64,000 nucleotides of DNA from an uncultured Erysipelotrichaceae bacterium (lineage in GTDB: Bacteria; Bacillota_I; Bacilli_A; RFN20; CAG-826): positions 1 to 64,000 of the forward strand of contig CACYCS010000018.1 in NCBI GenBank assembly GCA_902773005.1, given 5' to 3'. Under the pieces are notes generated by a model. That model saw only the letters and a list, made by a program, of their open reading frames with translations, was not told the origin of the DNA and ran no database searches. Each line of letters begins with the position of its first letter. The stretch's first letter is position 1. Below are positions 15,134-34,178 of this stretch, in pieces. A program made the position numbers and the translations under genes.

Positions 15134-18100
15134 ATGGACGATCAGCAATTACGCATTAGTCTCGAAATGGGACGCACTTTTTCTTTTCTCGAATACCATA
15201 GCGATGCGCTTGTCAAAGCAAGCGATCCTTCGATTTTCACAACTCCGTTTTCCTTCCTGCGCAAGGTAGAAATCGAAAACCTCACCGATCAAGATATCGT
15301 TGGAGCAACTCTTGCGCTTGAGTTCTCCAATCCGATTTTCTCCTGCGACCCACTTCCGCTTCCTGGCCTTCCCTCGCATCAGGAAACCGTGCTGAACCCC
15401 CTGCCCTCCATTTCAATCGATAGGAAAGCTCTTTATGCTTTAACCGAATCCGATGTTTGCGAAATCACCGCAAAAGTCCTCTCTTCGGACGGGAACGTCA
15501 TTTTCACGACCCACCGTTCCGCGAAGCTTTTGCCCATTTCCATGCCTAGCGAAGACCCCGAAGCCCGCGATGCCTTGATGACCAAATACGTTATCACCGA
15601 TTTCCCCGAGATGAGCCTCATCCACCACATGGCAATCGAAGAAAACGGCGGAAGGCCGCTCATCGGATACCAGAACACCCGCTACGATGGATCGATCGAC
15701 TCCGACGCGATTGTCCATGAAGTCGAGTGCATCTACAAAGCGCTCCACAAATACGGCATCACTTACGCGAACCCTCCCCACTCCTCCGAAGTCTTCCAGA
15801 AAGTTCGCCTTCCCATGACCGTCCTGAAAGACCGTCTTGGGACTTGCCTTGACCTCGCGATTCTCTGCTGCGCATGCATAAGCGAGATCGGGATCCGCTC
15901 CATCCTTTTCCTAGAGAAAGAACACGCATACTCCGGCTTCTTCCTTGACGAGAAAACCCAATATGTCCCCGTCGAGAAGAACCTAAGCATCGTCCTGAAT
16001 CAGGTTACCGGGACCAAGAAGATTGTCGTTCCCTTTGAGACAACCTTGATTTCCAGCGAGTCGAATGCCTCGTTCGCCGCCGCGATTCAATCCGCGACCG
16101 ATCGCTTGAAATCTCACCAGCCCGGGTTCAAGGCCATCGACATCGATTTCTGCCACACCGGGGCATATAAACCGCTTCCCGTGCCAAAAGACGAAGAAGC
16201 AAACATCGATTTTACGATAGAGCCTACCGCGATAAGCGAGACCGCGCTCACCTCGATTCGCGATTATCAATTCCGTCCGATCAATTCAGGCGAAGAGCAA
16301 AACCGCTTCACCACCTGGGAAAAGAAATTATTGGATCTCTCCGCCGGGAACAAGCTCGTGAATTTCAAATTCGCGAAAGGGAATTCCAACTGCATCATGT
16401 TTCCGAAGCAAGACGGCAAAGCCCTGTATGACTATCTGCGCTTCAGCGAGAAGAATAACTTCAAGATCCGCTTCCTTCAGGGCAATGAGAAAGAACTCAT
16501 CGGGGTCACGCAGGAAACGACCGATGAACTCCGCGCCCAAAACATCCTTCTCGCATATGGGTCGCCAACGGTTCTCAAGAAATTGATCCGCGCATCCAAT
16601 TCCTCCAAGGAAGAAACGGGTAGCCCTACCCTTTATTTGGCGCTAGCGAGCATCACAAACGAAAAGCTCAAGATGACCGCGCCGCTGCTACTACTTCCTG
16701 TAAGCGTCACCAAAGATAGGCTTGGCGAAGACTTCACGGCGGAATTCGATTTCGATGACCTGATGCTCAACAAAACCTTCTTCGAATATTGCAAACTCAA
16801 GACAGGGGTCGACTATTCTTCGGTTTATGGGCTTTCCGGCAACGATGAGTTCAACGACATTGTGAACACCATCCAGCAGATGACCGTCGGCAGTTTGTCG
16901 ATCGATAGCCAATGCTTCTTCCTCGCGAACTTCACCTTCTCGCATTACGTCATGTGGTCCGACATCCACAACAGACGCGATGAGCTTCAGGCGAATCCGG
17001 TCGTCGCGAGTTTGCTCAAGAACGAATCCGAAATCGTTAACGAGGAAAGCGAAGAAACATCTGACCTCGATCAGTTGGACGAGATGTCTAGCTTTGCCGC
17101 GCCGCTTCCTTACGACTCGACCCAGCTCAAAGCGATCGTCGAGGCGGGCAAAGGAAATTCGTTCATCCTCGATGGCCCGCCGGGAACTGGCAAAAGCCAA
17201 ACCATCGTCAACATGATCATCAATGCCTTCTACCATGGCAAGACGGTCCTATTCATCGCCGAGAAGATGGCGGCTTTGAACGTGGTTCGCAACCGACTCG
17301 AGAAGCTCGGGCTTTCCCGCTTTGCCCTTGAGCTCTACTCCAATAAAGCAAACAAGGCCTCGGTATTCAATCAGCTTGGGGAATCGCTGAATCTCGGCGC
17401 GCAGGCTTCCGCCGGGGATTTCGAAGGGAAATGCCTCGAGATCAAGAATAGGAAGAAAGAACTTGGCCAAGAACTCAAGAAGCTCCACCGCAAGAACGGC
17501 CTCTACTACTCCTTATACGAAGCGATCAACAATCGCCTTCTTTCCAATGAAGCCGCGGGCAAGATCTCGCTTGACGAGGATTTCGCCTCAAGTTACGATG
17601 GGCCAAAGGATGTCACAATCCGTGCCGCGCTTAGCGATATTCATAGCCTCGCCGACTCGATTCCTAACTTCGACGCAAGTCCTTTGAAGCGGCTTAAAAT
17701 CCACAAATTCGACTACACGGATCAAACGGAATTGGTTTTGAAATACCAAGTTCTACAAAGTGCCTTGCGCGATTTGAAAGGCGCTTACGAAGCATTCGCA
17801 GGCAGCGCAAGCGTCACCAAAACCCCGAATCGGAGGCAATTTCAGGACATCATCTTAATCTATGGACTCACCTTCCGCGGATCGATCCGCGGGGACGCGC
17901 TCATCGAGACCGACGTTTTCAAAAACGACACCTTGAACCTCGAGGCTTTGAATTTGATCCTTGATCTTGGCGCGATTCAAGAGAAATGGGCGAAGAAGTT
18001 CAAACCAGATGTCTTCACCGCGATCGACGCAGCCGAGTTAAACGCCTTCATTGAAGCCAATAGCGGGCTGTTTGCCAAAGGCAAGGTCAAGAAACGCTTT

Positions 18101-20875
18101 ACCCGGGAAATCGAGCCGTTTGCCGTCATGCCGAAGCCAAGCTTCGACGATTGCCGCGCTCTTGTTTCCGCAGCAGTCGAATTCCAAGCCAAGAAAAAGA
18201 ACGCGGAAATGCGTGAGAAAGACCTCACCACTTTCTTCGGCAGCGACATTTTGAAAGAGAAGGTCTACGAAAACGTCGCCGATAAGATAAAGATGTATCG
18301 CGAGACCAGCGAGCTATACCATTTGATTGAGAATTATGAAAACGGCGAGCAGCTTCCCCAGCGCATCGTTCGATTCATGACCATCCTCCAAGCCAAGGCG
18401 CAGCTCTTCCAGTCGAAATTGCTTCTTGAAGAGGTGGAACGCAAATTCGAAATCTACAAGGCAGCCGAGGATAACGCCATTGCCTCCTATCCATTCGAAA
18501 TCGAAGGCGGGGATTCCACCGAATTCCTCGGAAGCATCTCTTCGCTTCTTGAGGAATGCCTAAAGCCAGAAAGCGCAAAGCCGATCGCTTCAGCCGCGCA
18601 GATCAATGCCAGGTGCGACATCCTTCGCGAGCACGGCCTTTCCGCTTTGGCGAACGGCTTTGTCCGCGGAGAAATCGCAATCGATGAGATCGATGATGCT
18701 TTCGAGAACGCGCTCGACAACGCTTTCATCCGCCTCTATTTCCGCGATCCATATTACAACCAGTTCTCCAGCGCGCTTTATGAATCCAAGATCGAGTCCT
18801 ACCAAGAGCTCATCCAGGAATACAATTCCCTCGCCGTGGCGGAAGTCACTGCCAAAGTCACCGAGAACTTCATCAATCCGAAGATCGACCACAAAGCGTC
18901 AACTCCCATCGGCGCGCTTCGCAAGCTCGTCGCTAGCGGCGGACGCGGCATCACCATCAGGAACGCCCTCAAGAAGTACGAAAGCTATTTCAGGAGCTAC
19001 TTCCCCGTCTTCATGATGTCGCCGCTTTCCGCCGCCCAATACCTCGACGTCGATTCCCGCAAATTCGACCTCATCATATTCGATGAGGCGTCCCAGATCC
19101 CGACTTCTGAGGCCGTTGGCCCAATCGCTAGGGGCAACGCGCTTATCGTCGCAGGCGACCCGCAGCAGATGCCGCCGACGAATTATTTCTCCGTCTCGCT
19201 AAATAGCGATGACGTCGATGATGCAGGACTCGAGGAATTCCAAGACAGCGAATCGCTGCTCGACGATTGCATCTCGATCGGGATGCCGCGCATCAGGCTT
19301 TGCTTTCACTACCGCTCCAAGCACCAGTCGCTCATCGAATTCTCCAACCAGAATTTCTATCGCGGGGATCTATTCACCTTCCCAAGCTTCGACACATTGT
19401 CCTCGCACATCAGCTTCAAGCTCGTCGCCGCAAGCAAGAAGGACAATGGCCTCTCCAAAGAGGAAATCGACGCGGTGCTATCCACCTTGAAAGAGATCAT
19501 CACCTCCCCTACGGACCGCGGCAAATCCGTCGGCATCATCGTGTTCAACATCAAGCAGCAAGCCAAGCTCCAAGACGAAATCGATCGATTCTTCGACGCC
19601 AATAAAGAACTCGCTTCCATTGTCGCGGAATGGGAAGATCCCCTATTCGTCAAGAACCTCGAGAACGTTCAGGGAGACGAGAGGGACATCATCATCCTTT
19701 CCGTCGGCTTCAACAAGAACGCCTCTGGAAAAGCCGAGGTGCGCGGACCATTGATCCTCGACAAAGGCGAGCGCAGGCTAAACGTCGCCGCAAGCCGCGC
19801 CAAGGAAAGAATGATCGTCATCTCCACAATCCGCGGAGCAGATATCGATGCCGCCAAAGCCAAAAATGCGGGATCAAGGTTCCTCAAGGGCTTCTTAACC
19901 TATGCAGAAGCCGCCTCAAATTCGGAATTTGAGCTCGAAGAACCAGATCCTAGCATCGCGAACTTCATCCAGCGCGACCTTATGAGAAAAGGCTATGACA
20001 GCGACCTGAGCGTCGGTAGCAGCGGCTTCAAGATCGACCTCGCGATCAAAGCCAAAGGCTCGGACGAATACGTCCTAGGCGTGCTTCTAGATGGCGAAGA
20101 GGGCAGGGAAACCATGTCGACCAGGGACCGCTTCTACGTATCGCCAGCGATGCTAGGCGCGCTCAAATGGAAGATCGTCCACGTCTATACGCTCGACTAT
20201 CTGCGCTTCCCCGCCTCGACCGTCGATTCCATCGTTTCCGCGATCGGAGTGACCGATACCGCGGAAGTCGATACTTCCTTCTCCGCGCCGAAGCTCATCG
20301 ACGCGAACGAGGATTTCGACTACCGAATCGCCGAATACAACCGCTACAAGCCCCCGTTCTTGCTCAATCCGAGCAAATACGAGCCCAAACTCTACTATCC
20401 TCGCCTTGCGAATGAAATCATGGCGATCATAGCAGCCGAGTCCCCCATTTCAGCTGAAACGCTGAAGGAGAGGGTGAAAGAGCTATTAAACAACACCGCC
20501 AAGAAGAATCTCGACCAAATCATCGGAACCCAATTGGGCTTCTTGGCTGAGAAGATCGCAAAATCCACCGATTTCCAAACCGGAACATTCTATTGGGTGA
20601 AAGACGGAAACGAAGGGCAACTATTGCCTTGCCGCCACTCCGCTGAGCGCGATCTCTATAACACCCCCAAGGAAGAGATCGTTTACCTCATGAACCGCAT
20701 CATCGAAGCGCAGGGCAAAATCAGTCGCGAAGACTTGATTCGCCTAACTTCGACGAAGATGGAAGTCACCACTCTAACGAAAAAGGCCCATGACAAGATC
20801 GAATACTGTCTTGACTGGGCCATTCAGTTGAACCTGCTGCGCAGGGGATTCGTCGAGGCTTACGACCCCGAATGA
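15134..20875 (+). CDS. Giant DUF4011 SF1 helicase with Vsr-like nuclease domain
   Basis: This is a 1913-residue protein. An N-terminal beta-rich part leads to a transglutaminase-like segment (LKDRLGTCLDLAIL near residue 236, then EHAYSGFFL). DUF4011 begins near residue 390 (WEKKLLDLSAGNKLVNF). The SF1 helicase core has Walker A DGPPGTGKSQT near 679, DEASQIP near 1317, GDPQQMPPTNYF, NVQGDERDIIILS and motif VI LNVAASRAKERM near 1546. A Vsr/MTES_1575-type endonuclease domain follows (SGFKIDLAI, VLGVLLDGEEG, near 1632), then a DUF3320-like C-terminus. The core is expected to unwind nucleic acid and the nuclease to cut it. From memory, this domain set resembles a single-gene anti-phage system listed as hhe. 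The gene diverges from Wadjet, which supports defence. Confidence 0.88.
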   Translation: MDDQQLRISLEMGRTFSFLEYHSDALVKASDPSIFTTPFSFLRKVEIENLTDQDIVGATLALEFSNPIFSCDPLPLPGLPSHQETVLNPLPSISIDRKALYALTESDVCEITAKVLSSDGNVIFTTHRSAKLLPISMPSEDPEARDALMTKYVITDFPEMSLIHHMAIEENGGRPLIGYQNTRYDGSIDSDAIVHEVECIYKALHKYGITYANPPHSSEVFQKVRLPMTVLKDRLGTCLDLAILCCACISEIGIRSILFLEKEHAYSGFFLDEKTQYVPVEKNLSIVLNQVTGTKKIVVPFETTLISSESNASFAAAIQSATDRLKSHQPGFKAIDIDFCHTGAYKPLPVPKDEEANIDFTIEPTAISETALTSIRDYQFRPINSGEEQNRFTTWEKKLLDLSAGNKLVNFKFAKGNSNCIMFPKQDGKALYDYLRFSEKNNFKIRFLQGNEKELIGVTQETTDELRAQNILLAYGSPTVLKKLIRASNSSKEETGSPTLYLALASITNEKLKMTAPLLLLPVSVTKDRLGEDFTAEFDFDDLMLNKTFFEYCKLKTGVDYSSVYGLSGNDEFNDIVNTIQQMTVGSLSIDSQCFFLANFTFSHYVMWSDIHNRRDELQANPVVASLLKNESEIVNEESEETSDLDQLDEMSSFAAPLPYDSTQLKAIVEAGKGNSFILDGPPGTGKSQTIVNMIINAFYHGKTVLFIAEKMAALNVVRNRLEKLGLSRFALELYSNKANKASVFNQLGESLNLGAQASAGDFEGKCLEIKNRKKELGQELKKLHRKNGLYYSLYEAINNRLLSNEAAGKISLDEDFASSYDGPKDVTIRAALSDIHSLADSIPNFDASPLKRLKIHKFDYTDQTELVLKYQVLQSALRDLKGAYEAFAGSASVTKTPNRRQFQDIILIYGLTFRGSIRGDALIETDVFKNDTLNLEALNLILDLGAIQEKWAKKFKPDVFTAIDAAELNAFIEANSGLFAKGKVKKRFTREIEPFAVMPKPSFDDCRALVSAAVEFQAKKKNAEMREKDLTTFFGSDILKEKVYENVADKIKMYRETSELYHLIENYENGEQLPQRIVRFMTILQAKAQLFQSKLLLEEVERKFEIYKAAEDNAIASYPFEIEGGDSTEFLGSISSLLEECLKPESAKPIASAAQINARCDILREHGLSALANGFVRGEIAIDEIDDAFENALDNAFIRLYFRDPYYNQFSSALYESKIESYQELIQEYNSLAVAEVTAKVTENFINPKIDHKASTPIGALRKLVASGGRGITIRNALKKYESYFRSYFPVFMMSPLSAAQYLDVDSRKFDLIIFDEASQIPTSEAVGPIARGNALIVAGDPQQMPPTNYFSVSLNSDDVDDAGLEEFQDSESLLDDCISIGMPRIRLCFHYRSKHQSLIEFSNQNFYRGDLFTFPSFDTLSSHISFKLVAASKKDNGLSKEEIDAVLSTLKEIITSPTDRGKSVGIIVFNIKQQAKLQDEIDRFFDANKELASIVAEWEDPLFVKNLENVQGDERDIIILSVGFNKNASGKAEVRGPLILDKGERRLNVAASRAKERMIVISTIRGADIDAAKAKNAGSRFLKGFLTYAEAASNSEFELEEPDPSIANFIQRDLMRKGYDSDLSVGSSGFKIDLAIKAKGSDEYVLGVLLDGEEGRETMSTRDRFYVSPAMLGALKWKIVHVYTLDYLRFPASTVDSIVSAIGVTDTAEVDTSFSAPKLIDANEDFDYRIAEYNRYKPPFLLNPSKYEPKLYYPRLANEIMAIIAAESPISAETLKERVKELLNNTAKKNLDQIIGTQLGFLAEKIAKSTDFQTGTFYWVKDGNEGQLLPCRHSAERDLYNTPKEEIVYLMNRIIEAQGKISREDLIRLTSTKMEVTTLTKKAHDKIEYCLDWAIQLNLLRRGFVEAYDPE

Positions 20876-23682: not shown

Positions 23683-24285
23683 CTAACGATAAGGATTGAC
23701 CTTGGCGAAGACGGCCTCCATCGTCGGGCCGCACTGCCTAATCTCTTTGCCTAAGCCAGGAAGCATTTCAACGTGGTCCGGCTTGCTTGGCTTTTTGGCG
23801 ATGCAGGCTTGGAGGAACGCATCTTCGTTTATCAGCACTTCCACTTTGTTTTTCTTCTCGAAAGCGCGGAGGGCGCGGATCAATTCAACGCCAACATAGC
23901 GGAGGAAGGCGCGCTTGGCATCCTCTTTGCTGATCGGCTTGATGGTTACGACATCATCAGAGGGCTTTTGAATGTCGTAGAAATGCAAATGCAGGGAGCG
24001 AATGGCGATTTTAGTCGCGGCATCGGCGGATGGGAGTATTTCTTTGATCGCCGCATCGGTTAGGTATCGGGGGCCGGAGATCTTGCGGATCTTATAGGAA
24101 AGGCCTGCAATAGCACCATAAACAGGAGGCTGTTTGGTGCTCACTTGCTTAGAAGGAGCAACCTTATTGCCGGTTTTCGGATCAAGGAGCTCATGGATTT
24201 TGGTCATCGCGGTTCCGCAATGCGGACAAGAGCTAGAACGATCGGAAATCTTTCTTTTGCATACAGGACAGAATATCAAAGCCAT
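23683..24285 (-). CDS. Zinc-ribbon protein of unknown function
   Basis: About 200 residues. The N-terminus has a rubredoxin-like zinc ribbon (CPVCKRKISDRSSSCPHCG), then a linker rich in K, T and P. The C-terminal domain of about 130 residues contains AAIKEILPSADAATKIA and an R/K-rich segment; I do not recognise it. I chose the ATG at 24285, which follows GGAGGG. The gene lies 148 nt downstream of the large noncoding RNA on the same strand, and TTGACA appears immediately after the RNA's terminator. A zinc ribbon plus a basic domain could bind RNA, but a link with the RNA is only positional. Confidence 0.75.
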   Translation of the reverse strand: MALIFCPVCKRKISDRSSSCPHCGTAMTKIHELLDPKTGNKVAPSKQVSTKQPPVYGAIAGLSYKIRKISGPRYLTDAAIKEILPSADAATKIAIRSLHLHFYDIQKPSDDVVTIKPISKEDAKRAFLRYVGVELIRALRAFEKKNKVEVLINEDAFLQACIAKKPSKPDHVEMLPGLGKEIRQCGPTMEAVFAKVNPYR

Positions 24286-24430
24286 TTGTTCCCTCCACGC
24301 CACAGGCGGCGATGATCTTTATTTTATTTTATTTTATTGAACCGTGAAAAGAATGCCATACCAAAACTGCAAAAATCGTATTTTCTTTGCAGAAAGCTGT
24401 TTATTCTCGCGCGCGTGTACAGGTGTCAAT

Positions 24431-24459
24431 ATAAAGAAACGCCCCACATTGCTGCGGGG
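24431..24459 (-). terminator. Rho-independent terminator of the large noncoding RNA
   Basis: The minus strand reads CCCCGCA GCAA TGTGGGG, a 7-bp stem (one G-U pair) capped by a GNRA tetraloop, followed by CGTTTCTTT. It sits exactly where the hairpin-rich region ends. Confidence 0.8.
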
Positions 24460-26026
24460 TGCTCTCGGGTACTATCGTTTAACGTCAGAAGTCTCCAGTC
24501 CGACGAGGTGCGTACTTCCTTGCGGTTTACCGCGTGCAAGTTCCTGCATCAAGCACTTCAAGAGGTTGCCCTAATGAATCTCGAGTCGATCGCCCTGCGC
24601 TCTATCACGCAAGTCTCTAACACGATGGTTGTTGTTTTCCTGGTTCACCAAGCGGGAGATCCCTTAACTCCCTTCGCCCTTCATCAGTTGCCTTTTGAAG
24701 CGCATCTCCGACCCGCCTAACGCCCATCCTCAATGGAACGTCAGCCACGAATCAGCAGCGTCCTTTCTGGGGGAGCTACCCTCACTGGGGACTACTGGCC
24801 AGCCCTGCCGAAGCAGGTTCCCCGATTCCCTTTCCTCCTCGCGGAGAAGGCGTTAACGGGGCATGGGAGGCATTTCCAGCGGTCTACCGCACGCCGAGCC
24901 TCCTTTGGGCACCCTAGGTTTATGGATTCGCCTAGGTTCTCAAGCGGGTGACCATCGGTTATCCAACGGTCCTTTCGTTTGACATCCCTCTTTTACCAGT
25001 TTCACTTTGGGAGGGGATGTTTCCCGGCCTCTACCTCACGTTGCCATGCCTTCGAGGCTATCCCGGGAGGCCTTCCTTTTTACGGGTCGGTCACTCTCGA
25101 GAAGGGAACTATTACCGGTCTACCGAACGCTATTCCCTTGCGCACCAGGTTCTCTCTATCGCTAGCAAGGCCTGGATCTTCGCGATTCGCCTTGCGACCC
25201 TCGCGAACCCGCTTTTGATTTTCTGATACTATCAGATGCCAGGTAGGGTATCCTGGCCCCGAGATCCTCGGCTTACGCCTTGGCTCGGTCTCCCCTGTTC
25301 CGCGATGGATTTCTCCAAACCCGTTGTCCTTGGGGAATCGCTCCGTTCCGATCTATCGAGCAGGGAGCTTTGCTGCGGGAAGGGTTGCCCCATCCTCTCC
25401 GATGCCTTTCAATCCCCTTCGTAGGGACCTACTCCGACATCGACCTTCGTTCTTGGCGTTTACGCCCTGAGGGAGGACTCCTCAGCTGACCCCATGGATA
25501 ACTTTAGGGGCCATCGGTGATTTTTCCTTCAGAAGCTCACGCTTCCGGACTACTCGTCGCCACGCGCACTTTCGGGTTTACCCTCGATAGCGATTCGTTT
25601 GGGGCACGTTGTTGAGGACCGTGATCCCAATCGCGGGGCTTCCTCCTACTTTCGCAGGTACCTCGCACCATCCTTTTCCAAGCAACCTTGCCGCCAGGAT
25701 GTTCGGCGTGCCGCCTCTTCTCGAACGAGAAGGTCAGCGAGGAGCTCCGTCACCGTCCCACAGAGGAACGATTCCTTTGCTCCTGCCCCGTTTGTCTGGT
25801 TTACCAGGTGGGAGGGGAGAATCCCACGGTGAGACACCCAATAGAAGATGTTCGTCTTTCGATCAAGCCCGTATCGCGCGAGGTGGCGGTGTCCTGATCA
25901 AGCATCCCATTCGTCGCTCACAATGAGCGCCAGGCGGATTGCTTTCCCTTGTCCCGGACAGCAACTTTTGATCGCCGCCAGGTCACGCCATCGTGGAACT
26001 CTTGCGAGCCCCGCTTCCTGCGTGGT
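24433..26026 (-). ncRNA. Very large structured noncoding RNA (about 1.6 kb), class not recognised
   Basis: About 1,590 bases carry no credible gene: the only minus-strand frame above 60 codons is 63 codons without a ribosome binding site. The minus strand is full of short hairpins with stable RNA tetraloops, which fixes the transcribed strand. Examples are CTCGCAAGAG (25999-26008), CCTGC-GAAA-GTAGG (25645-25658), CCTGC-TTCG-GCAGG (24804-24817), GAAGC-GTGA-GCTTC (25532-25545), GGCG-TAAA-CGCC (25455-25466) and CTTCTC-GTTC-GAGAAG (25717-25732). The GC content is much higher than in the flanks. A strong promoter and a perfect terminator frame it. The conserved 16S and 23S rRNA segments, the RNase P core, a tmRNA tag frame and a group II domain V were not found. 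It may be a new class or a greatly expanded member of a known ornate RNA class (GOLLD, ROOL, OLE). Confidence 0.8.
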
Positions 26027-26031
26027 CCATT

Positions 26032-26080
26032 ACTTTACTACAATAAATTGGCGTGTCAATACTTTTTTTAAAATATTTTT
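26032..26080 (-). promoter_or_regulatory. Strong promoter of the large noncoding RNA, with UP-like element
   Basis: The minus strand has TTGACA (26059 to 26054), a 16-bp spacer and TAAAGT (26037 to 26032). Directly upstream lies an A/T tract of over 20 bp made of A-runs and T-runs, resembling the UP elements of rRNA promoters. Initiation is expected near 26026, just where the hairpin-rich sequence begins. Confidence 0.65.
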
Positions 26081-26234
26081 TCCTCGTGCGCGCGGGCGCT
26101 TTAATCCATATAAAACTTTGCTTTCGTCTCATAATTTTTCGAAAAATTTTCTTTTTTTGATTGCCGCTAGAGACTAGCTGGTGATTGTTTTTGATTCCTT
26201 TTTTCGGATTCGCTTTAGGATATGCGCCACAGAA

Positions 26235-26280: not shown

Positions 26281-26649
26281 CTATCGTCTTTCGCCGACGA
26301 CTTCGATCGTCTCGCCAGAAGGAGATTCAACAAAGCAAAGAGGGCCAGTCAAACCCATCTTGATCATGCCGAGGACCATCTTGAAGTCGATGTTCTTCAA
26401 AAGTTTCGAGGTGGTGATGGCGGTGTCGGGTTTTGCCTTGGTGAAATTGACGATCGCGGTGATTGGGAAGCTGACGGTGACGGTCTCGCCGCTCTTCTTA
26501 TGGGCGACGATGCGGATCGTGGTGTCTTTCAATTCTTCCTTAGTGGCTTTCTTGCCGCTATATTCAGGAATCGGGAGAAGGTCTTCGACGGGTTGCTCTT
26601 CCTCAGGGACCTCTTCCTCGACGGGATTGATGATTTCTTCGTTTGCCAT
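26281..26649 (-). CDS. Small acidic protein of unknown function
   Basis: The protein has 122 residues. The first 30 are almost entirely acidic or proline (NPVEEEVPEEEQPVED) and probably disordered. The rest is a compact domain with IRIVAHKKSGETVTVSFPIT and a C-terminal GPLCFVESPSGETIEVVG. I do not recognise the family. It has its own transcription unit: TATAAT at 26694 to 26689, AAGGAAA before the ATG, and a terminator after the stop. It is the gene immediately upstream of the large noncoding RNA on the same strand. Confidence 0.75.
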   Translation of the reverse strand: MANEEIINPVEEEVPEEEQPVEDLLPIPEYSGKKATKEELKDTTIRIVAHKKSGETVTVSFPITAIVNFTKAKPDTAITTSKLLKNIDFKMVLGMIKMGLTGPLCFVESPSGETIEVVGERR

Positions 26650-26760: not shown

Positions 26761-27882
26761 GTGAATATACTAATTCTTCCCGATTCCTTTAAGGGAACCT
26801 TGGACTCAAAAACGGCTGGAGAAGTCATAGAAAACGTCGCTAGACGTGCCTTTCCCGACTCTAACATCGCGCATTTTCCTGTCTCAGATGGCGGTGAAGG
26901 ATTCTTGGATATGGTCGCGGCAATGACGACCTGCGAAGAAGTGCCAATTCAAATTCTTGATTCCAAATTGGAGAAAACCGTCGATTCGAAGATTTTGATA
27001 GCCGGCGATTGCGCATACATCGAATCGGCGTTGGCGTGCGGATACTCGCAAAGGGCAATCGGAGCTAATGCAACTAACGCTTCTTCCTATCCTCTTGGTC
27101 AGTGCATTCGTGAAGCAATAGAGCGCGGGGCAAAAGAAATACATATCGGTCTCGGCGGAACGATAACCCATGATCTTGGTTGCGGCGCATTAGCTGCTTT
27201 AGGTGCGGAATTTCGCGATCAGAGTGGGAATGCATTCATACCAAATGGAAGCACATTAAATCAAATTTCTTCAATTTCAAAAGATAATTTGATAACAAAC
27301 GTATCTTTTACAATCTATTCTGACGTCAAAAACACGTTATTAGGAGCATCTGGTGCAGCACGTGTTTTTGCCAAGCAAAAAGGGGCTAGCGATGAAGAGA
27401 TTGAAATGCTAGAAAGAAATTCTTGCGATGCTGCCGCGGTTTTTGCGAAGACATTTGGCAAGGATTGTTCCACCGATATTTCGTCTGGATCCGCTGGCGG
27501 GCTTGGATTCGCGTTTATTTCAGCGTTCTCAGCCACTGTGAAAAGCGGCAGCGAGTTCGCCCTCTCTTCACCCGTAATTTCGGAGCGATTAAGGCAGGCT
27601 GATTTAATCATTACTGGCGAAGGAAAAATCGATTCGCAAAGTAAGGGCGGAAAGCTAGTTGGAACGCTTTCAGAGTATGCAGTTGCACATAATAAAAAAT
27701 TGCTAGCCATCGGTGGTTTTATTGAAAAATGCTCCAAGGATCTTCTCCCTGAAGCATCTTGGTTTTTGGACTTATCCTCTTTGCACGGAAAGGATTATTC
27801 AATGAGAAATCCTCACCAAGCTATAGAAGAGGGTTTAGGGCTACTCCTGAGCGATATCGCGGGACTTTCCCTGCATCAATGA
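26761..27882 (+). CDS. Glycerate 2-kinase (GlxK/GarK family)
   Basis: The protein has about 373 residues and phosphorylates D-glycerate with ATP. The N-terminus NILILPDSFKGTLDSKTAGEV and the following PVSDGGEGFLD are family hallmarks, as are VGLGGTITHDLGCGALAALG (offset by one residue) and LIITGEGKIDSQSKGGK. I chose the GTG at 26761. An extended -10 element (TGG TAGAAT, 26746-26754) ends 6 nt before it and there is no ribosome binding site, so the message is probably leaderless. The reading frame also opens at a TTG two codons earlier. It converges on addA and their 3' ends overlap by 42 nt. It has more AT-rich codons than its neighbours. Confidence 0.9.
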   Translation: MNILILPDSFKGTLDSKTAGEVIENVARRAFPDSNIAHFPVSDGGEGFLDMVAAMTTCEEVPIQILDSKLEKTVDSKILIAGDCAYIESALACGYSQRAIGANATNASSYPLGQCIREAIERGAKEIHIGLGGTITHDLGCGALAALGAEFRDQSGNAFIPNGSTLNQISSISKDNLITNVSFTIYSDVKNTLLGASGAARVFAKQKGASDEEIEMLERNSCDAAAVFAKTFGKDCSTDISSGSAGGLGFAFISAFSATVKSGSEFALSSPVISERLRQADLIITGEGKIDSQSKGGKLVGTLSEYAVAHNKKLLAIGGFIEKCSKDLLPEASWFLDLSSLHGKDYSMRNPHQAIEEGLGLLLSDIAGLSLHQ

Positions 27883-30800
27883 GACGAGCGTCATCTTGAC
27901 TTTATCCTTATTTATATTAAATAGCCTCATGACGTTTCGCGCGTAGTTTTTAAGCTGGTTATCGTATTCCAAATCCTCAATGTGCGAGGTCTTGTAATCG
28001 ATGATCCAATATATATCGCCTTTTACGACGAGCAAATCGATATACCCCTGATTGTTCAGTTCGGTATCGAAGTACCCATATTCTTTATATATATCGGCGC
28101 CTTCCAAATCCTGGAAGCACTCCATTTTCAAAGCGGCATCTATTAAAGCACGGTCGCTTGGGTCTGCGATGAAAGAGGTGTCTTTGCTTTTCAGATCTAC
28201 GATCTCCATATATCGATGCAGCAATTCGCCGCGTTCTAAGATCGGGCGAAGGGCTTCTTCGTCTTCCGAAGACAAGGACTTGGATGCTTTCTTGCGCGAT
28301 AACACAGGGAACTCGATTTCGGAGTCATCGACTCTCACGTTGGGAATTACGGGCTGTGCACCCATGGACTTTTGGGTGGATCTAAAATAATCGAAAGCGT
28401 AATGGCGGTCAGAATACTCATCAGACTCATATGAGACCGAGAATATCTTCTTATATCCATCGAAAGCGAAGGCTAAAGATGGAAGCGCCCTCTTTGCGAG
28501 TTTGCGGATTGCTGCGCCTGAGGCATCTTTATTGCGTTCTTCAGCAGTGAGAGCGATACCAAAGAAATCGACATTCCTATCTATCAATGCTTGGCGAACT
28601 TGAGATAGACGCTCCGAAGTATAAGGCTTGATTCGTTTGGATTTTTCTTCCGATGAAGCCTCTGCGTCTTCGCTAGATTCATCAACGCTAGCAGCCTCAG
28701 TCGGTGCTATGGAAGCGATGTAGGCGTTCAGTTCTTCGAGGTTAAAGATATTGGGGTTACCGAAATAGAAGTGGGACACGAATCTAGCAATGAGATCATC
28801 ATCCGCGCCAGGAACCTTGTCGAGGTAATAAGAGCAAGATGATATCCGAAGGGTGTCTTTGGATTGTTCCATCTTTTCGTCTAGCACAGGGCCGAAGTAG
28901 AAACGGGTCAATTCTTCCCTCACTTCAAAATCCATTTGCGGCAAGGTAGCCGGCTTCTTTTCGAATAGCGACATCCCTTTCTTGATGCGGACCATATCGG
29001 AATAGGCGTCGATCGAGGCTTTTGTTGAAGGAGAGCGCTGTCTCAACAGCTCGGCGAATTGCGGATCGATCGTCTCGTAGAACGGGACGAAGCGGAGCAT
29101 TTCGTAAAGGTCTTCGCGCTTCTTCATGTCGTCCCCGACCAAATAGATCGCGTTTTCGGCCCTGGTCAAGGCGACGTAGAAAAGCCTGACGTGCTCATCT
29201 AGGTCGACCTGTTCCAAATTCGAATTGATGTAGGCAAGATAGGGAAGGCTATAGATCGAGTGGTCATCGGCATAGAGTTGCCCTTCTTCTCGCCTGATCG
29301 AATAGTCCGGGAGCAATATGCCATACTCTTCGGAGATATCCATGTCTGGCTTGCCGATGTTGGAGCCGCTCGCCATGCAGTTGACGGACTCAGGCATGTA
29401 GACGATCTTCTGCTCAAGGCCTTTCGAGCCGTGGATCGACATCAGGGTAACCGCGTTATCGGATTTGTTCGCATCGTCGGAAGAGATGTCGAGATTGTAT
29501 TTGTTTAAGTCGCGGAATAACTTTGCGAACTCGCGGATGCCTTCGCCCATGGAGGAGAGAGAAAGGGCGAGCGAATGGAGCGAATCGATCTTGGCAATGG
29601 AATCCTGAACGTTGCCCACTAGATAGAGATCGGATACCACATGGAACTCATCGACCATATCTAGGAAGATCTCCTCGAATTGGCTGTCGGCGTGGGACGC
29701 TGCGAATTCGTCGATTTGGCGCATGAGCGGGTCGTCGTTAAGTAGCGCATCATCCATGCACAAAGCAAAGATCACCCGGTCTTCATATCGATAGGCGTAG
29801 CTTCTTGCGATGGAGGCGAAGAGATGCTTGATGTCGGCAGGGTCGTTATTGAGTTTGGCGCTAATGATGGAGGAGAGCGATTGCATCAAAATGACCGGGC
29901 TGATGTCGCGCAAAGACACTTGGATCTCGCTGTTGAGAGGAATGCCTTCCTCTTGAAAACGCTCACGATAATAGGAGAATTGCGCCTTTTTTCGCATAAG
30001 AATCAGGAAGTCGCCGTATTTGCATGGGCGCGGGCCTTTGAAATCGCGATCATATACTAGATGCCCATCCGCGACTTTCTTTCGGATGTCAGCGATGATT
30101 GCGGCGCACTCCCATTCCATGGACGGCACGCCGTCATCTTTTTCTTCCGACATCGAGTGGATGCGGTAGATACCGGCGTTATCATAGGGTTTGCCGTAGA
30201 GATTGACCGTTTGATCGTAATCTAGTTGCTCCGCCGGCTCCATGAAGTCGATGCCGCCGTGGTCGAGGCGCATGTAGCTTTTGAAGATGTAATTGATGTC
30301 GTGGAGAAGCTGCGGGCAAGAACGGTAATTCGTGTTCATCGGAATCACTAGATGCCCATCTCCGGAAGCGTAATCTGATTGCCTTTTGCGGAACAATGCG
30401 ACATTCGAATTGCGGAACGCGTAGATCGATTGCTTGGCGTCGCCTACGAAGAATAGGTGGGCCCGCGTGCCGTCATCGCGAGGGGCGGAAAGCGCATCGA
30501 TGAATTGCTCTTGGAAGTCGTTGGTGTCCTGATATTCGTCCACCATGATGAAATTGAAGCGACCCCTGATCGATTTCGCCACTTCCGCGTGCTTCGGATC
30601 GGTAAGCAAGGACAACGCCATCGTCGAGATATCGGAGAAGGTGAAGCTATTGGTGGCGCGCTTATAATCCCATAGTTTGCCCTCGAGCTTTTGCGCTAAT
30701 TCCAAAAGCAGAAGGATATCGTCTTTGAATTCGAGGCCAGTCTGTAGCGGCGCCTCTGAGTTGATCGGCTTGAGGTATCCCAGGGTGCAGTTAACGGTTG

Positions 30801-31761
30801 CGAAGAGGATTCGCATCGTCTTGTAAGGTGGCAAAAACAAATCCTCGGGGTCGGTCTTTTTCCGCCTGCGGGGTTTCATGAATTCCGGATTGTTCTCGCC
30901 AAAGGAATTGCAGGCAGATATGAATTCGGCGCCTTCAAGATCTAGTAGCGGCAATATCTTCTCAAGAAGAGCATTCGCGACTTCATCGGCGAAGGAAATG
31001 GTTTTGATATCCTGCGCCCAAGGAATGGGATCCTCATAGGCGGCTTTGGCCAAATCATATGAGATTGACTCGGTGTCCGCGAAATCGTGATGGCGTTCTA
31101 GGAAATAGGCGTCGCGGATTGCTTTGACGATGTCTTTCTTCGCGCGAATGACGAACTCGTGAAGGATCTTTTCGCAGAAGTCATTGGACAAATAACGTTC
31201 CGCGTAATTCTCGATGAAGTCCTTTCTCTTGCTCGGGGTGAGCCCATTTAGGAACTTCGTGATGGCCAGGACATCCTTTTTGAGATTTGAGTCATCCTGG
31301 AAATCGATTTTCTTTAGAGTGCTTAGAACGCGTTCGCGCTGAACGGGATCGGCATAATATTTCTCGAGTAGCTCGTCGAGGAAGGCTAGCTTCTTCGCGT
31401 CGAGAATCGAATCGTTTGCAACGCTGATGCGACTAGCGATTCCCAATGCCCCCGCGTTTGTCGAGACGAGGTATTGCGAGAAGGAGTCGAATGTCTGAAC
31501 GTGGGCAGAAAGCATTTCCTGCGCCTTCGAATTCCCGCCGAAAGCCCTGACGATTCTTTCTTTCATCTCATGGGCGGCGTTATTGGTGAAAGTCAAAACG
31601 AGGAGCTCGCTTGGCTTGATGGCTCCGGTGTTTACGAGTTCAAAGACCTTCTTCGTCAAAGTCTTGGTCTTACCAGAACCCGCCCCTGCCGAAATGATCA
31701 CATCAATATCGGGAGAGGTTTCGATGGCAAGCGATTGCTGCGCGTTGAATCCCTCGATCAT
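27841..31761 (-). CDS. addA: ATP-dependent helicase/nuclease subunit A (AddA)
   Basis: AddA is the UvrD-like motor and nuclease of the AddAB double-strand-break resection enzyme. The protein has 1306 residues. Motif I is ISAGAGSGKTKTLTKKV near residue 23. Later motifs are IMVDEYQDTNDFQEQFI, KQSIYAFRNSN, LMSIHGSKGLEQKIVY and FYVALTRAENAIYL. A PD-(D/E)XK nuclease domain near residue 1250 has YIDLLVVKGDIYWIIDYKT. The length is close to B. subtilis AddA (about 1230). It is translated after addB with a 4-nt overlap, so the two subunits are made together. Confidence 0.95.
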   Translation of the reverse strand: MIEGFNAQQSLAIETSPDIDVIISAGAGSGKTKTLTKKVFELVNTGAIKPSELLVLTFTNNAAHEMKERIVRAFGGNSKAQEMLSAHVQTFDSFSQYLVSTNAGALGIASRISVANDSILDAKKLAFLDELLEKYYADPVQRERVLSTLKKIDFQDDSNLKKDVLAITKFLNGLTPSKRKDFIENYAERYLSNDFCEKILHEFVIRAKKDIVKAIRDAYFLERHHDFADTESISYDLAKAAYEDPIPWAQDIKTISFADEVANALLEKILPLLDLEGAEFISACNSFGENNPEFMKPRRRKKTDPEDLFLPPYKTMRILFATVNCTLGYLKPINSEAPLQTGLEFKDDILLLLELAQKLEGKLWDYKRATNSFTFSDISTMALSLLTDPKHAEVAKSIRGRFNFIMVDEYQDTNDFQEQFIDALSAPRDDGTRAHLFFVGDAKQSIYAFRNSNVALFRKRQSDYASGDGHLVIPMNTNYRSCPQLLHDINYIFKSYMRLDHGGIDFMEPAEQLDYDQTVNLYGKPYDNAGIYRIHSMSEEKDDGVPSMEWECAAIIADIRKKVADGHLVYDRDFKGPRPCKYGDFLILMRKKAQFSYYRERFQEEGIPLNSEIQVSLRDISPVILMQSLSSIISAKLNNDPADIKHLFASIARSYAYRYEDRVIFALCMDDALLNDDPLMRQIDEFAASHADSQFEEIFLDMVDEFHVVSDLYLVGNVQDSIAKIDSLHSLALSLSSMGEGIREFAKLFRDLNKYNLDISSDDANKSDNAVTLMSIHGSKGLEQKIVYMPESVNCMASGSNIGKPDMDISEEYGILLPDYSIRREEGQLYADDHSIYSLPYLAYINSNLEQVDLDEHVRLFYVALTRAENAIYLVGDDMKKREDLYEMLRFVPFYETIDPQFAELLRQRSPSTKASIDAYSDMVRIKKGMSLFEKKPATLPQMDFEVREELTRFYFGPVLDEKMEQSKDTLRISSCSYYLDKVPGADDDLIARFVSHFYFGNPNIFNLEELNAYIASIAPTEAASVDESSEDAEASSEEKSKRIKPYTSERLSQVRQALIDRNVDFFGIALTAEERNKDASGAAIRKLAKRALPSLAFAFDGYKKIFSVSYESDEYSDRHYAFDYFRSTQKSMGAQPVIPNVRVDDSEIEFPVLSRKKASKSLSSEDEEALRPILERGELLHRYMEIVDLKSKDTSFIADPSDRALIDAALKMECFQDLEGADIYKEYGYFDTELNNQGYIDLLVVKGDIYWIIDYKTSHIEDLEYDNQLKNYARNVMRLFNINKDKVKMTLVSLMQGKSRDIAQE

Positions 31762-34178
31762 AATTCTTCTTCCTCCGCTAGGCTGAATTTCTTTTCCACC
31801 TCGTCATAGTAGCTCACCAGATCCTTGACTAGGACGCGATAGCAAACGTCCCGATAGCCGCAATACGAACACACGGGTTGGCCATATCTGCTAGTGGGCG
31901 AAATGAATGTCGGCGCGATGGGGAAATGCCCGCTTTTGATTTTTTGGATGGTTTCGACCATGGATTTTTTGGCATCACTCACGACATCCTTGATCGTATA
32001 TTTGATTTCGCCTTCCCCGAGTATTGATGAATCCAAGTCCTCGAAGCCATATTTGAAGCTTAGGAAATCACCGCCCGTGGATCTCAGCTCGCCATATTTA
32101 TTGAACGCGGTTTTGTCAATGGAGTTCGCGTAATCGGGATCCATCGACAAAGCGCCTTGCAGTTTGCTTCCTTTGATTAGGTTATTTTCCGATACGACGC
32201 CGTCGCGAACTAGCGCGGCTTTGGGCGTCTTGAAATAGATATGCTGGATTCCAAACCCTGCGATATGCGCTCCTTTGGCAAGGTGAGCATTCTCGGATTG
32301 TTGAATCGCCCAATAATAAAGCGGGAGCTGGGTGGATTTCCCAAGGAACACCTCATACGGGTTGAAGGTTTCGCTGCCGGTTTTGTAGTCGAGGATCGTG
32401 CAATATTTTCCTTTGTCTCCCTTGGTGATCACGATTTTGTCGATGATGCCCGAGAAGGGATAGGAAAGCCCGTTTTCATCGCTAAGGTAGAACTGCACTC
32501 TCTGCTCCGCGTCATCCTCGTTTTCCACGATTGTCGCGGATTCGGTCCACCGCTTCAAAATCGGCACGGTGTAGGAAAGCCAATACTTAGCAAGGCGAAG
32601 CAGCGTCTCATATCGTTCGGTGAATGGGGCGGATTGTTTTTGGAGATATTGCTTGAAGGCATCTTCCGCTTCAAGGAAGGACGTTTCGAAATCAAAGTCC
32701 TTGTGGTAGAGGCGTTCGAATAGCTTATGCGTCGCGGAACCGAATGCGCGCTTATAGAAATCGCTATCCCCTTGCTCGGGAAGCATCTTGCCCATCAGGT
32801 AGCGGAAGGGACAATTGATGTAAGTTTCAAGATTGGTCACAGACCATACCTTGTCTTCGGGATAAAGTGGGCGGTCGATTCCTTTGAAGGAATGATCATA
32901 GGACATGATCTTCCCATGGGGAGCATGGTAGAACTGACGGTCGAGGCAATCCGCCTGGAAAAGCAATTCGGCAGCGCTTGTGTAAACGCCATCCGGATTA
33001 TCGGCGATCTTGACGATCTTCTTCTTGTCCCAATGGAGCTCGGCGATGAATTGCGATGCGTAAATCGCGTCCTTCAAGTGGCTCCCGACGCGAGAGAGAA
33101 ATGGAAAATCCGTGAAGGACAGGTAGTCGAATTTGAGTTGGCGGTCCATCGAAGTGAGCGAATAGCTAGGGTTGCCGCCGATCTCGACGATCCGCGCGTC
33201 CGGATAGGCATTCTTGTCGTCGAATTCGCGATAGAAATCGCCAAACTGGAAATCGAGGATATAGGTGAGCCGCCCTGGCGTGATTGCGAAATCAGTGACG
33301 ATGGGAACGCCTTTCCGTTCCGCTTCTTCTTTCACGCTGCAGGAATCAAGGATCTCCAAAAGGTTCGCGTAGGCAAAATCGAAGTCGAAGTAAGCAAGTT
33401 CATAGCTATCGATCAAGCGGCGCAACTCTGTTCTAGCTGGGTCATCCGCGGGCTCAAGGGCAAAGGATTTCGATTTGAAGATCGTTTGCAGGTCCTTTTT
33501 CACGGAATTGAAGGTCAATAGTTTCCTGCGGGAATCGCGGTAATAAGGAATCCCGAATATCGGGGCGAGCAATTTGATATACATGAAATCCGCATCGTCT
33601 TTGACGTGGATCGCGATGCGGTTACTGAGGCTCGGGTCATCCAATAAACGCTTCCTGATATCGGAAAACACATACATGTATTGCGCGAATTTGTTCGGGA
33701 AGAGATATACAGGGGGCATGACGCGCAGGTCTTTTGCACTCGAGAGATCAAAGAGTTCATCCGCATCCGAATAGGCGATTCCTTTGCGGTTTAAGAACTC
33801 GCGAAGCTCATAATTGTCGTTCAGGCGGAACAAGCGGACATCCATCGACGAGATTTCCGCCATGCCCAAAGGATCGCGGAAAAGGTATTTTCCTTTTTCG
33901 AGTTCTTGCTCGAGTTCATCAAGGAACGGCTCAACACCGGGCTTTCTGACGCGCAGGATATTCAGATACTTCTTGGCACGGCTATAGGAAATTCCTTTTC
34001 GAAGCAAAAGAGGGATAGGGTCTTTCGCGAACGAATAAGTCGCTAAATCCAGTAACCCATTTTCATCGATCAGCTTGAAATTAAGTCGCGGATTCTTTTC
34101 CTTGGCTCGGTAAAGCAAAGGAAAGTATTCCCTTCGCGCGACGATAAGTGTTTTCTTTTCTGCATTAAACATTTGCAT
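31758..34178 (-). CDS. addB: ATP-dependent helicase/nuclease subunit B, short form (AddB-like)
   Basis: The protein has 806 residues and is the partner of AddA. The C-terminal nuclease has the iron-sulphur cysteine layout of AddB: one Cys in TYINCPFRYLMG near residue 454 and three in VCSYCGYRDVCYR near residue 775. The catalytic segment is TILDYKTG near 598. It is about 350 residues shorter than B. subtilis AddB (about 1160), and the N-terminal inactive-helicase half is reduced. I see no Walker A motif. TATAAT ends 9 nt before the ATG at 34178 and there is no Shine-Dalgarno sequence, so the message is nearly leaderless. An ATG two codons later is an alternative start. Confidence 0.85.
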   Translation of the reverse strand: MQMFNAEKKTLIVARREYFPLLYRAKEKNPRLNFKLIDENGLLDLATYSFAKDPIPLLLRKGISYSRAKKYLNILRVRKPGVEPFLDELEQELEKGKYLFRDPLGMAEISSMDVRLFRLNDNYELREFLNRKGIAYSDADELFDLSSAKDLRVMPPVYLFPNKFAQYMYVFSDIRKRLLDDPSLSNRIAIHVKDDADFMYIKLLAPIFGIPYYRDSRRKLLTFNSVKKDLQTIFKSKSFALEPADDPARTELRRLIDSYELAYFDFDFAYANLLEILDSCSVKEEAERKGVPIVTDFAITPGRLTYILDFQFGDFYREFDDKNAYPDARIVEIGGNPSYSLTSMDRQLKFDYLSFTDFPFLSRVGSHLKDAIYASQFIAELHWDKKKIVKIADNPDGVYTSAAELLFQADCLDRQFYHAPHGKIMSYDHSFKGIDRPLYPEDKVWSVTNLETYINCPFRYLMGKMLPEQGDSDFYKRAFGSATHKLFERLYHKDFDFETSFLEAEDAFKQYLQKQSAPFTERYETLLRLAKYWLSYTVPILKRWTESATIVENEDDAEQRVQFYLSDENGLSYPFSGIIDKIVITKGDKGKYCTILDYKTGSETFNPYEVFLGKSTQLPLYYWAIQQSENAHLAKGAHIAGFGIQHIYFKTPKAALVRDGVVSENNLIKGSKLQGALSMDPDYANSIDKTAFNKYGELRSTGGDFLSFKYGFEDLDSSILGEGEIKYTIKDVVSDAKKSMVETIQKIKSGHFPIAPTFISPTSRYGQPVCSYCGYRDVCYRVLVKDLVSYYDEVEKKFSLAEEEEL

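Follow-up and report, generated by a model that had tools for sequence, protein, structure and literature searches.

The locus considered here raised the question of whether a stretch of about 1.6 kb without evident protein-coding function is the gene for a single structured RNA and, if so, whether that RNA belongs to a known class. A preliminary description, made from sequence alone, had proposed a structured RNA of about 1.6 kb, perhaps one transcript, of an unrecognised class, with ends at 24433 and 26026. In the 64,000-nt stretch of DNA that was analysed (the window), the region was identified as a stand-alone gene for a structured non-coding RNA (ncRNA) on the minus strand (26025–24433, approximately 1.59 kb). 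The predicted ends of the transcript agreed with those proposed earlier to within 1–2 bases.

Extent and coding capacity of the RNA gene

The features of the gene are listed in Table 1. In the window copy, the RNA strand carried no credible ORF, as had been claimed, the longest ATG-started frame being 53 aa, and no reading frame was conserved across 31 homologues. The claim of a strongly raised GC content held only in part, as the increase was moderate (0.56–0.58 within the RNA gene, compared with mostly 0.43–0.52 outside). The gene unit (promoter, RNA and terminator), the conservation of RNA structure and the missing coding capacity are all shown by sequence comparison. That the homologues have been kept as one unit from promoter to terminator supports a single transcript, as the preliminary description had allowed for; this remains an inference from sequence alone, there being no RNA data on transcription, length or abundance.

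Table 1. Features of the giant RNA gene and its immediate neighbours in the window
Feature	Position	Strand	Comment
A/T-rich UP-like tract (GGAAAAAATATTTTAAAAAAAGTA)	26061..26085	−	Directly upstream of the −35; conserved in homologues
Promoter TTGACA-16 nt-TAAAGT	26032..26059	−	10/12 matches, best of region
Predicted giant structured RNA transcript, ~1593 nt	24433..26025	−	Homologues collinear from promoter to terminator; covariation; no ORF
U(A/G)NA hairpin CTGG-TAAA-CCAG	25796..25807	−	
U(A/G)NA hairpin GGCG-TAAA-CGCC	25455..25466	−	
U(A/G)NA hairpin TCGA-TAGA-TCGG	25348..25359	−	
U(A/G)NA hairpin TCGG-TAGA-CCGG	25115..25126	−	
Core U(A/G)NA hairpin GCGG-TAGA-CCGC	24879..24890	−	
U(A/G)NA hairpin CTTGG-TGAA-CCAGG	24639..24652	−	
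U(A/G)NA hairpin GCGG-TAAA-CCGC	24522..24533	−	
Most conserved core GCCCAAAGGAGGCTCGGCGTGCGGTAGACCGCTGGAAATGCCTCCC	24867..24913	−	Hairpin with asymmetric internal loop; hardly varies among 27 sequences
Covariance model R1 region (core + flanking hairpins)	24783..24938	−	Modelled
Intrinsic terminator (7-bp stem, GCAA loop, T tract)	24434..24459	−	Nearly invariant across family (CACC..GCAG..ATG...GGCGTTT)
Downstream neighbour, 206-aa zinc-ribbon-like protein	23683..24303	−	
Upstream neighbour, 122-aa protein of unknown family	26281..26649	−	

Homologues and distribution

A DNA search of 96 related genomes revealed homologues in the same genus. The nearest relative (G025) carried two copies with approximately 65–68 % identity over most of the length, and the source genome possessed a second, diverged copy on another contig (L002, G000:C3). 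One genome listed as a match in this first search (G053) was rejected as a family member by profile. With the covariance model R1, at least 36 copies were detected in 23 of the 279 genomes of the order, comprising 19 of the 31 species in the same genus and four in one sister genus, both genera being uncultured Bacilli of ruminants; at the sensitivity of this model, no further members were found when 395 genomes sampled from the class and 392 from the phylum were searched. Each positive genome carried one to three copies, at unrelated chromosomal sites. Nearly all intact copies were collinear and spanned promoter to terminator (1.44–1.6 kb). All the genomes are metagenome-assembled genomes (MAGs); some copies were located at contig ends, a few of them being truncated there. 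In the phylogeny, the window copy and both G025 copies formed a separate long clade (1.57–1.6 kb), and the second copy of the source genome fell in a clade of 1.4–1.5 kb.

A pattern scan of the genomes of 84,980 species gave matches in uncultured Bacilli MAGs (labelled ‘Erysipelotrichaceae’, ‘Bacilli’, ‘Bacillales’ or ‘Firmicutes’), many of them from rumen, omasum or abomasum. Four matches outside the Bacilli (Pseudomonas, Planctomycetia, Betaproteobacteria and Methylocystaceae) were discounted, as a few are expected by chance for a pattern of 18–19 letters. Phage and plasmid blast searches and two pattern scans of IMG/VR yielded either nothing or chance patterns that were rejected by profile.

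The RNA was absent from several near-complete genomes of the genus (G005, G009, G010, G022 and G028), and it is therefore dispensable and accessory.

Promoter, upstream palindrome and terminator

Both the TTGACA promoter with an A/T-rich upstream tract and the GNRA-capped terminator at the far end, as previously described, were confirmed. The conserved unit included a promoter block consisting of an A tract, TTGAC or TTGCA, a 16-nt spacer and TATAGT, the last being the usual −10 element of the homologues, in place of which the window copy has TAAAGT. The same layout was found at the 16S rRNA gene promoters of sister species within the genus (for example AAAAATCGCAAAAAAAGTCCTTGACC...TATAGTAATC in G016), which likewise possess an A-tract UP-like element, a TTGAC −35 and a TATAGT-like −10. 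The giant RNA itself is unrelated to 16S rRNA. On the basis of this common layout, strong, rRNA-like transcription is inferred for the giant RNA, in the absence of RNA data. At the other end, the terminator stem (24459–24442, minus strand) reads CCCCGCA-GCAA-TGTGGGG and is followed by CGTTTCTTTA.

Near the RNA promoter, approximately half of the copies possessed a perfect palindrome, typically TAGATAC-n3/5-GTATCTA, the end of which was mostly 31–34 nt upstream of the −35, a nearly fixed distance. The carriers (including loci L008, L009, L014, L015, L019, L022, L023 and L025) represent the 1.4–1.5 kb clade, and the clade of the window copy has no palindrome. In G004, G016 and G017 the exact form was restricted to the RNA genes, and the two arms covaried between species (TAAATAT/ATATTTA, TAGGTATC/GATACCTA and TGATACC/GGTATCA). 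It is possible that the palindrome is a dedicated operator with a co-evolving regulator, or else a structural element.

These features bear on one rival explanation, that the RNA is a regulatory sponge or mimic, sequestering sRNA, RNA polymerase or a ribosome factor, and is not architectural. A strong rRNA-like promoter together with accessory status would suit a decoy, and the dedicated palindrome that about half of the copies carry 33 nt ahead of the −35 is a sign of regulated expression. However, a covarying structure of 1.5 kb (see below) far exceeds the needs of a sponge and, structured cores aside, no single-stranded antisense segment is conspicuously conserved. This explanation is considered unlikely.

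Conserved secondary structure

Folding energies were compared with those of dinucleotide shuffles. For the window copy, the minus strand gave z = −7.1 and the plus strand z = −2.4; two coding controls gave +1.2 and −2.1. A consensus structure was predicted with RNAalifold from 28 non-redundant full-length sequences (median identity approximately 62 %). This fold contained 353 bp, of which 278 showed compensatory change, and its energy was −590, compared with −217 ± 13 for column-shuffled alignments (z = −28.7). The percentage of paired cells was 86.4 %, compared with 37–46 % when the partners were slid by 1–3 columns and 71.4 ± 0.3 % when the 3′ letters were dealt anew (shuffled partners). All 19 of the strongest covarying helices identified by a structure-blind mutual-information scan fell within the predicted structure. 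For the core, an independent tool gave a covariation score of 0.423 versus 0.166 (0 of 500 shuffles), with 99 compensatory cells versus 31 ± 6 in shuffles.

The giant RNA is composed of approximately 70 short helices. Its core forms a nearly invariant 46-nt hairpin with an asymmetric internal loop (UCGGCGN/UGGAAA), and there was a trend for the 3′ part of the RNA to be better conserved and the 5′ part more variable. Long-range and pseudoknot helices were not resolved. The global fold is not established, because few long-range helices were supported by covariation with the 28 distinct sequences available.

Recurrent tetraloop hairpins

At least six stems with GNRA or UUCG loops had been claimed for the minus strand. 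This held, the window copy possessing eight GNRA hairpins and one UUCG hairpin (stems ≥ 4 bp), together with seven further hairpins capped by U(A/G)NA (Table 1) that the preliminary description had not named. Across the family, there was a mean of 8.3 GNRA hairpins per RNA, compared with 1.3 in shuffled sequence, and a mean of 6.5 U(A/G)NA hairpins, compared with 0.45. The U(A/G)NA loops were closed by G-C, i.e. GGUNNACC hairpins, and, as read from the alignment, an A-rich strand usually lay 3′ of them. This recurrent hairpin may represent a tertiary-contact or a protein-binding module.

Comparison with known RNA classes

A comparison with Rfam and a search for homologues with covariation had both been suggested at the outset; the former gave no match and the latter yielded many homologues with very strong covariation. 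The window copy had no match in Rfam 15 at the gathering threshold, or at E ≤ 10 except for two chance ones, and four other homologues likewise had none; snoRNA and lncRNA models gave the only matches, all by chance. Models of rRNA, RNase P, tmRNA and group I/II introns did not match the window copy, and those of ROOL, GOLLD and OLE matched neither the window copy (E ≤ 10) nor the four other copies (E ≤ 1). The earlier claims that rRNA, RNase P, tmRNA and group II intron segments are absent, and that the RNA represents an unrecognised class larger than OLE, ROOL and GOLLD, were both upheld.

The possibility that the locus is a degenerate or divergent rRNA, an intron or another known RNA missed by the models, or an untranscribed artefact, is all but excluded. 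In its favour are a size like that of 16S rRNA and a promoter that resembles rRNA promoters. Against it, no Rfam match was obtained even at E ≤ 10 beyond chance, RNA-bearing genomes (G004, G012 and G016, for example) possess an ordinary 16S gene at another place, and decay is ruled out by the strong compensatory evolution.

A single ncRNA of more than 500 nt with extensive covariation-supported structure qualifies as a giant ornate ncRNA, and the present RNA does so; for a further mark of this kind, expression as one stable transcript, the only support is that promoter and terminator are conserved. Known examples are ROOL (659 nt in one case), GOLLD (over 800 nt) and OLE (about 600 nt) (PMC12286853, PMC9723947). 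ROOL forms a homo-octameric RNA nanocage and GOLLD a 14-mer cage, and both are mostly phage- or prophage-linked (PMC12286853); ROOL is as abundant as 16S rRNA in some strains, is non-essential and is present in only part of the strains (PMC5643018). The giant RNA is like ROOL in being a large stand-alone structured ncRNA of gut or rumen Bacillota with an accessory distribution and no linked protein function, and probably in its very high expression, which for the giant RNA is inferred without RNA data. It has no sequence or model similarity to ROOL, however, and is far longer (ROOL being approximately 500–660 nt). Whereas ROOL is encoded by phages, prophages and a megaplasmid, in many cases close to tRNA islands, the giant RNA is dispersed on chromosomes among ordinary genes and none was found in viral collections. 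GOLLD is also a giant ornate RNA in which the 3′ part is conserved better than the 5′ part, the latter being more variable, but it is only about 800 nt long, is linked to phages and tRNA arrays, and its Rfam model does not match. OLE likewise represents a conserved class of large stand-alone RNAs with intricate structure in Bacillota. It is a ribonucleoprotein (PMC9723947) that works with proteins and is sited at membranes (PMC9723947, PMC12265935), its partners including a protein encoded by the downstream gene (PMC5643018). The giant RNA differs from this RNA of about 600 nt with partner proteins in lacking a model match and a linked partner-protein gene, no neighbour being shared at about 25 sites.

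The giant RNA fails the model tests for ROOL, GOLLD, OLE, introns and rRNA, and the context tests for ROOL and GOLLD. It is a new class of ‘giant ornate RNA’ in the descriptive sense and is about double GOLLD in length. Searches of the open-access literature, which does not include subscription journals, gave no previous account of it.

Genomic context

The immediate neighbours of the RNA genes were ordinary, mostly housekeeping genes that differed at each site (ZIP transporter, NAD synthase, ABC ATPases, M18 peptidase, GGDEF, etc.), and no gene recurred around the approximately 25 sites. In the closest relative (G025, contig C46), the two genes that flank the window copy were adjacent, approximately 270 bp apart with no RNA between them, and synteny extended on both sides. 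In a second case, the gene upstream of one G030 RNA was followed 37 bp on by another gene in G002. The RNA sites were identical between the close species G024 and G030. The empty G025 site, the differing neighbours and the lack of a recurrent one lead to the inference that the RNA gene is dispersed, that genomes acquire or lose it as a whole and that it must work in trans.

The same context suggests a selfish or mobile element as a rival explanation, i.e. a non-autonomous RNA-encoding insertion that spreads between intergenic sites, possibly by means of its own ribozyme activity or of a transposase or reverse transcriptase supplied in trans. The presence of one to three copies per genome at unrelated sites, the patchy distribution (19 of 31 species of the genus), the empty site with conserved neighbours in G025 and the second neighbour pair (G030 with the RNA, G002) are consistent with this. 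On the other hand, neither terminal inverted repeats nor target-site duplications nor a linked recombinase came to light, although divergence hides the exact junctions; copy number was low, no group I/II intron or other mobile RNA was matched, the conserved unit starts with a promoter and ends with a terminator, as a gene does, and orthologous sites were kept between G024 and G030. A mobile element is therefore judged unlikely.

Some further observations were made on individual loci. In the G003 copy L014 (G003:C198), the 5′ flank corresponded to that of one G023 RNA locus, and the RNA body and the 3′ flank to those of the second; the L041 loci in G023 (G023:C11, 839–2349 and 14126–15636) are two direct repeats 13 kb apart. 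The L014 junction is the expected product of recombination between copies (a circle or tandem duplication junction) or of a short-read assembly chimera. Elsewhere in the window, a 1913-aa protein (15134–20875, plus strand) with DUF4011, AAA_11/AAA_12 helicase, MTES_1575 REase and DUF3320 domains is a large helicase-nuclease that may serve in defence, and an adjacent UvrD-type helicase (1306 aa) and PD-(D/E)XK nuclease (806 aa) form an AddAB-like pair (27841–34178, minus strand).

Proposed role of the giant RNA

The likely explanation is that the locus encodes, as a gene of its own, a giant structured ncRNA of a new class of approximately 1.44–1.6 kb, which works in trans, acts architecturally and is of conditional benefit; its transcription, assembly and function are inferred. 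The strong rRNA-like promoter would give an abundant transcript that accumulates as a stable particle-forming RNA, and the short covarying hairpins strung along the RNA, with their GNRA and U(A/G)NA caps, would make loop–receptor contacts, producing a compact scaffold. This scaffold would act either as an RNA-only, perhaps homo-oligomeric, assembly like ROOL and GOLLD or, joined by a protein that the host encodes, as a ribonucleoprotein core, and would benefit the host conditionally without being essential. An architectural role is favoured because of the recurrent U(A/G)NA and GNRA hairpins, the lack of a linked protein gene and the patchy presence, and is inferred to be the most probable one, the choice between the two assembly modes being undecided.

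Self-complementary loops that could serve homo-oligomers were not conserved among the 28 sequences; the only common palindromic loop was GAAUUC (18 of 28), and this position is not self-complementary in the clade of the window copy. The analogy with RNA-only cages is also weakened by the fact that ROOL and GOLLD are mostly phage-linked, whereas the giant RNA was not found in IMG/VR, phage or plasmid collections.

The alternative of a ribonucleoprotein core like OLE, in which the U(A/G)NA hairpins would serve as binding sites for at least one host protein not encoded at the locus, with the particle acting at a membrane or on ribosomes, is judged less likely than not. Seven near-identical hairpin modules per RNA would fit a repeated protein contact, and OLE provides a precedent for an RNA that works with proteins at membranes (PMC9723947, PMC12265935). 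Unlike OLE (PMC5643018), however, no site has a linked protein gene, and the hairpins can equally be explained as tertiary contacts. Since the architectural explanation includes both assembly modes, the confidence placed in it overlaps with that placed in this alternative.

A bolder reading, judged less likely than not, is that the RNA is a categorically new 1.5-kb RNA machine, unrelated to known families and driven by promoters of rRNA strength. As a single molecule or an oligomer, it would form a particle of ribosome size or larger, which would serve a dedicated function in the cells of ruminant gut Bacilli.

Few giant ornate bacterial RNAs have been solved in three dimensions (OLE, ROOL and GOLLD); all are less than about 1 kb, their function is unclear and two of them proved to be RNA-only cages. 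Among comparable bacterial RNAs with solved shapes, even the largest are only about half the size of the RNA described here. With at least 36 copies at a median identity of about 62 %, ready covariation and a compact transcription unit, it is a direct target for structural biology and makes it possible to ask whether bacteria in general rely on big RNA assemblies as a strategy. Its discovery also shows that RNA genes on the kilobase scale are still hidden in uncultured gut Bacilli, in regions that annotation pipelines leave blank.
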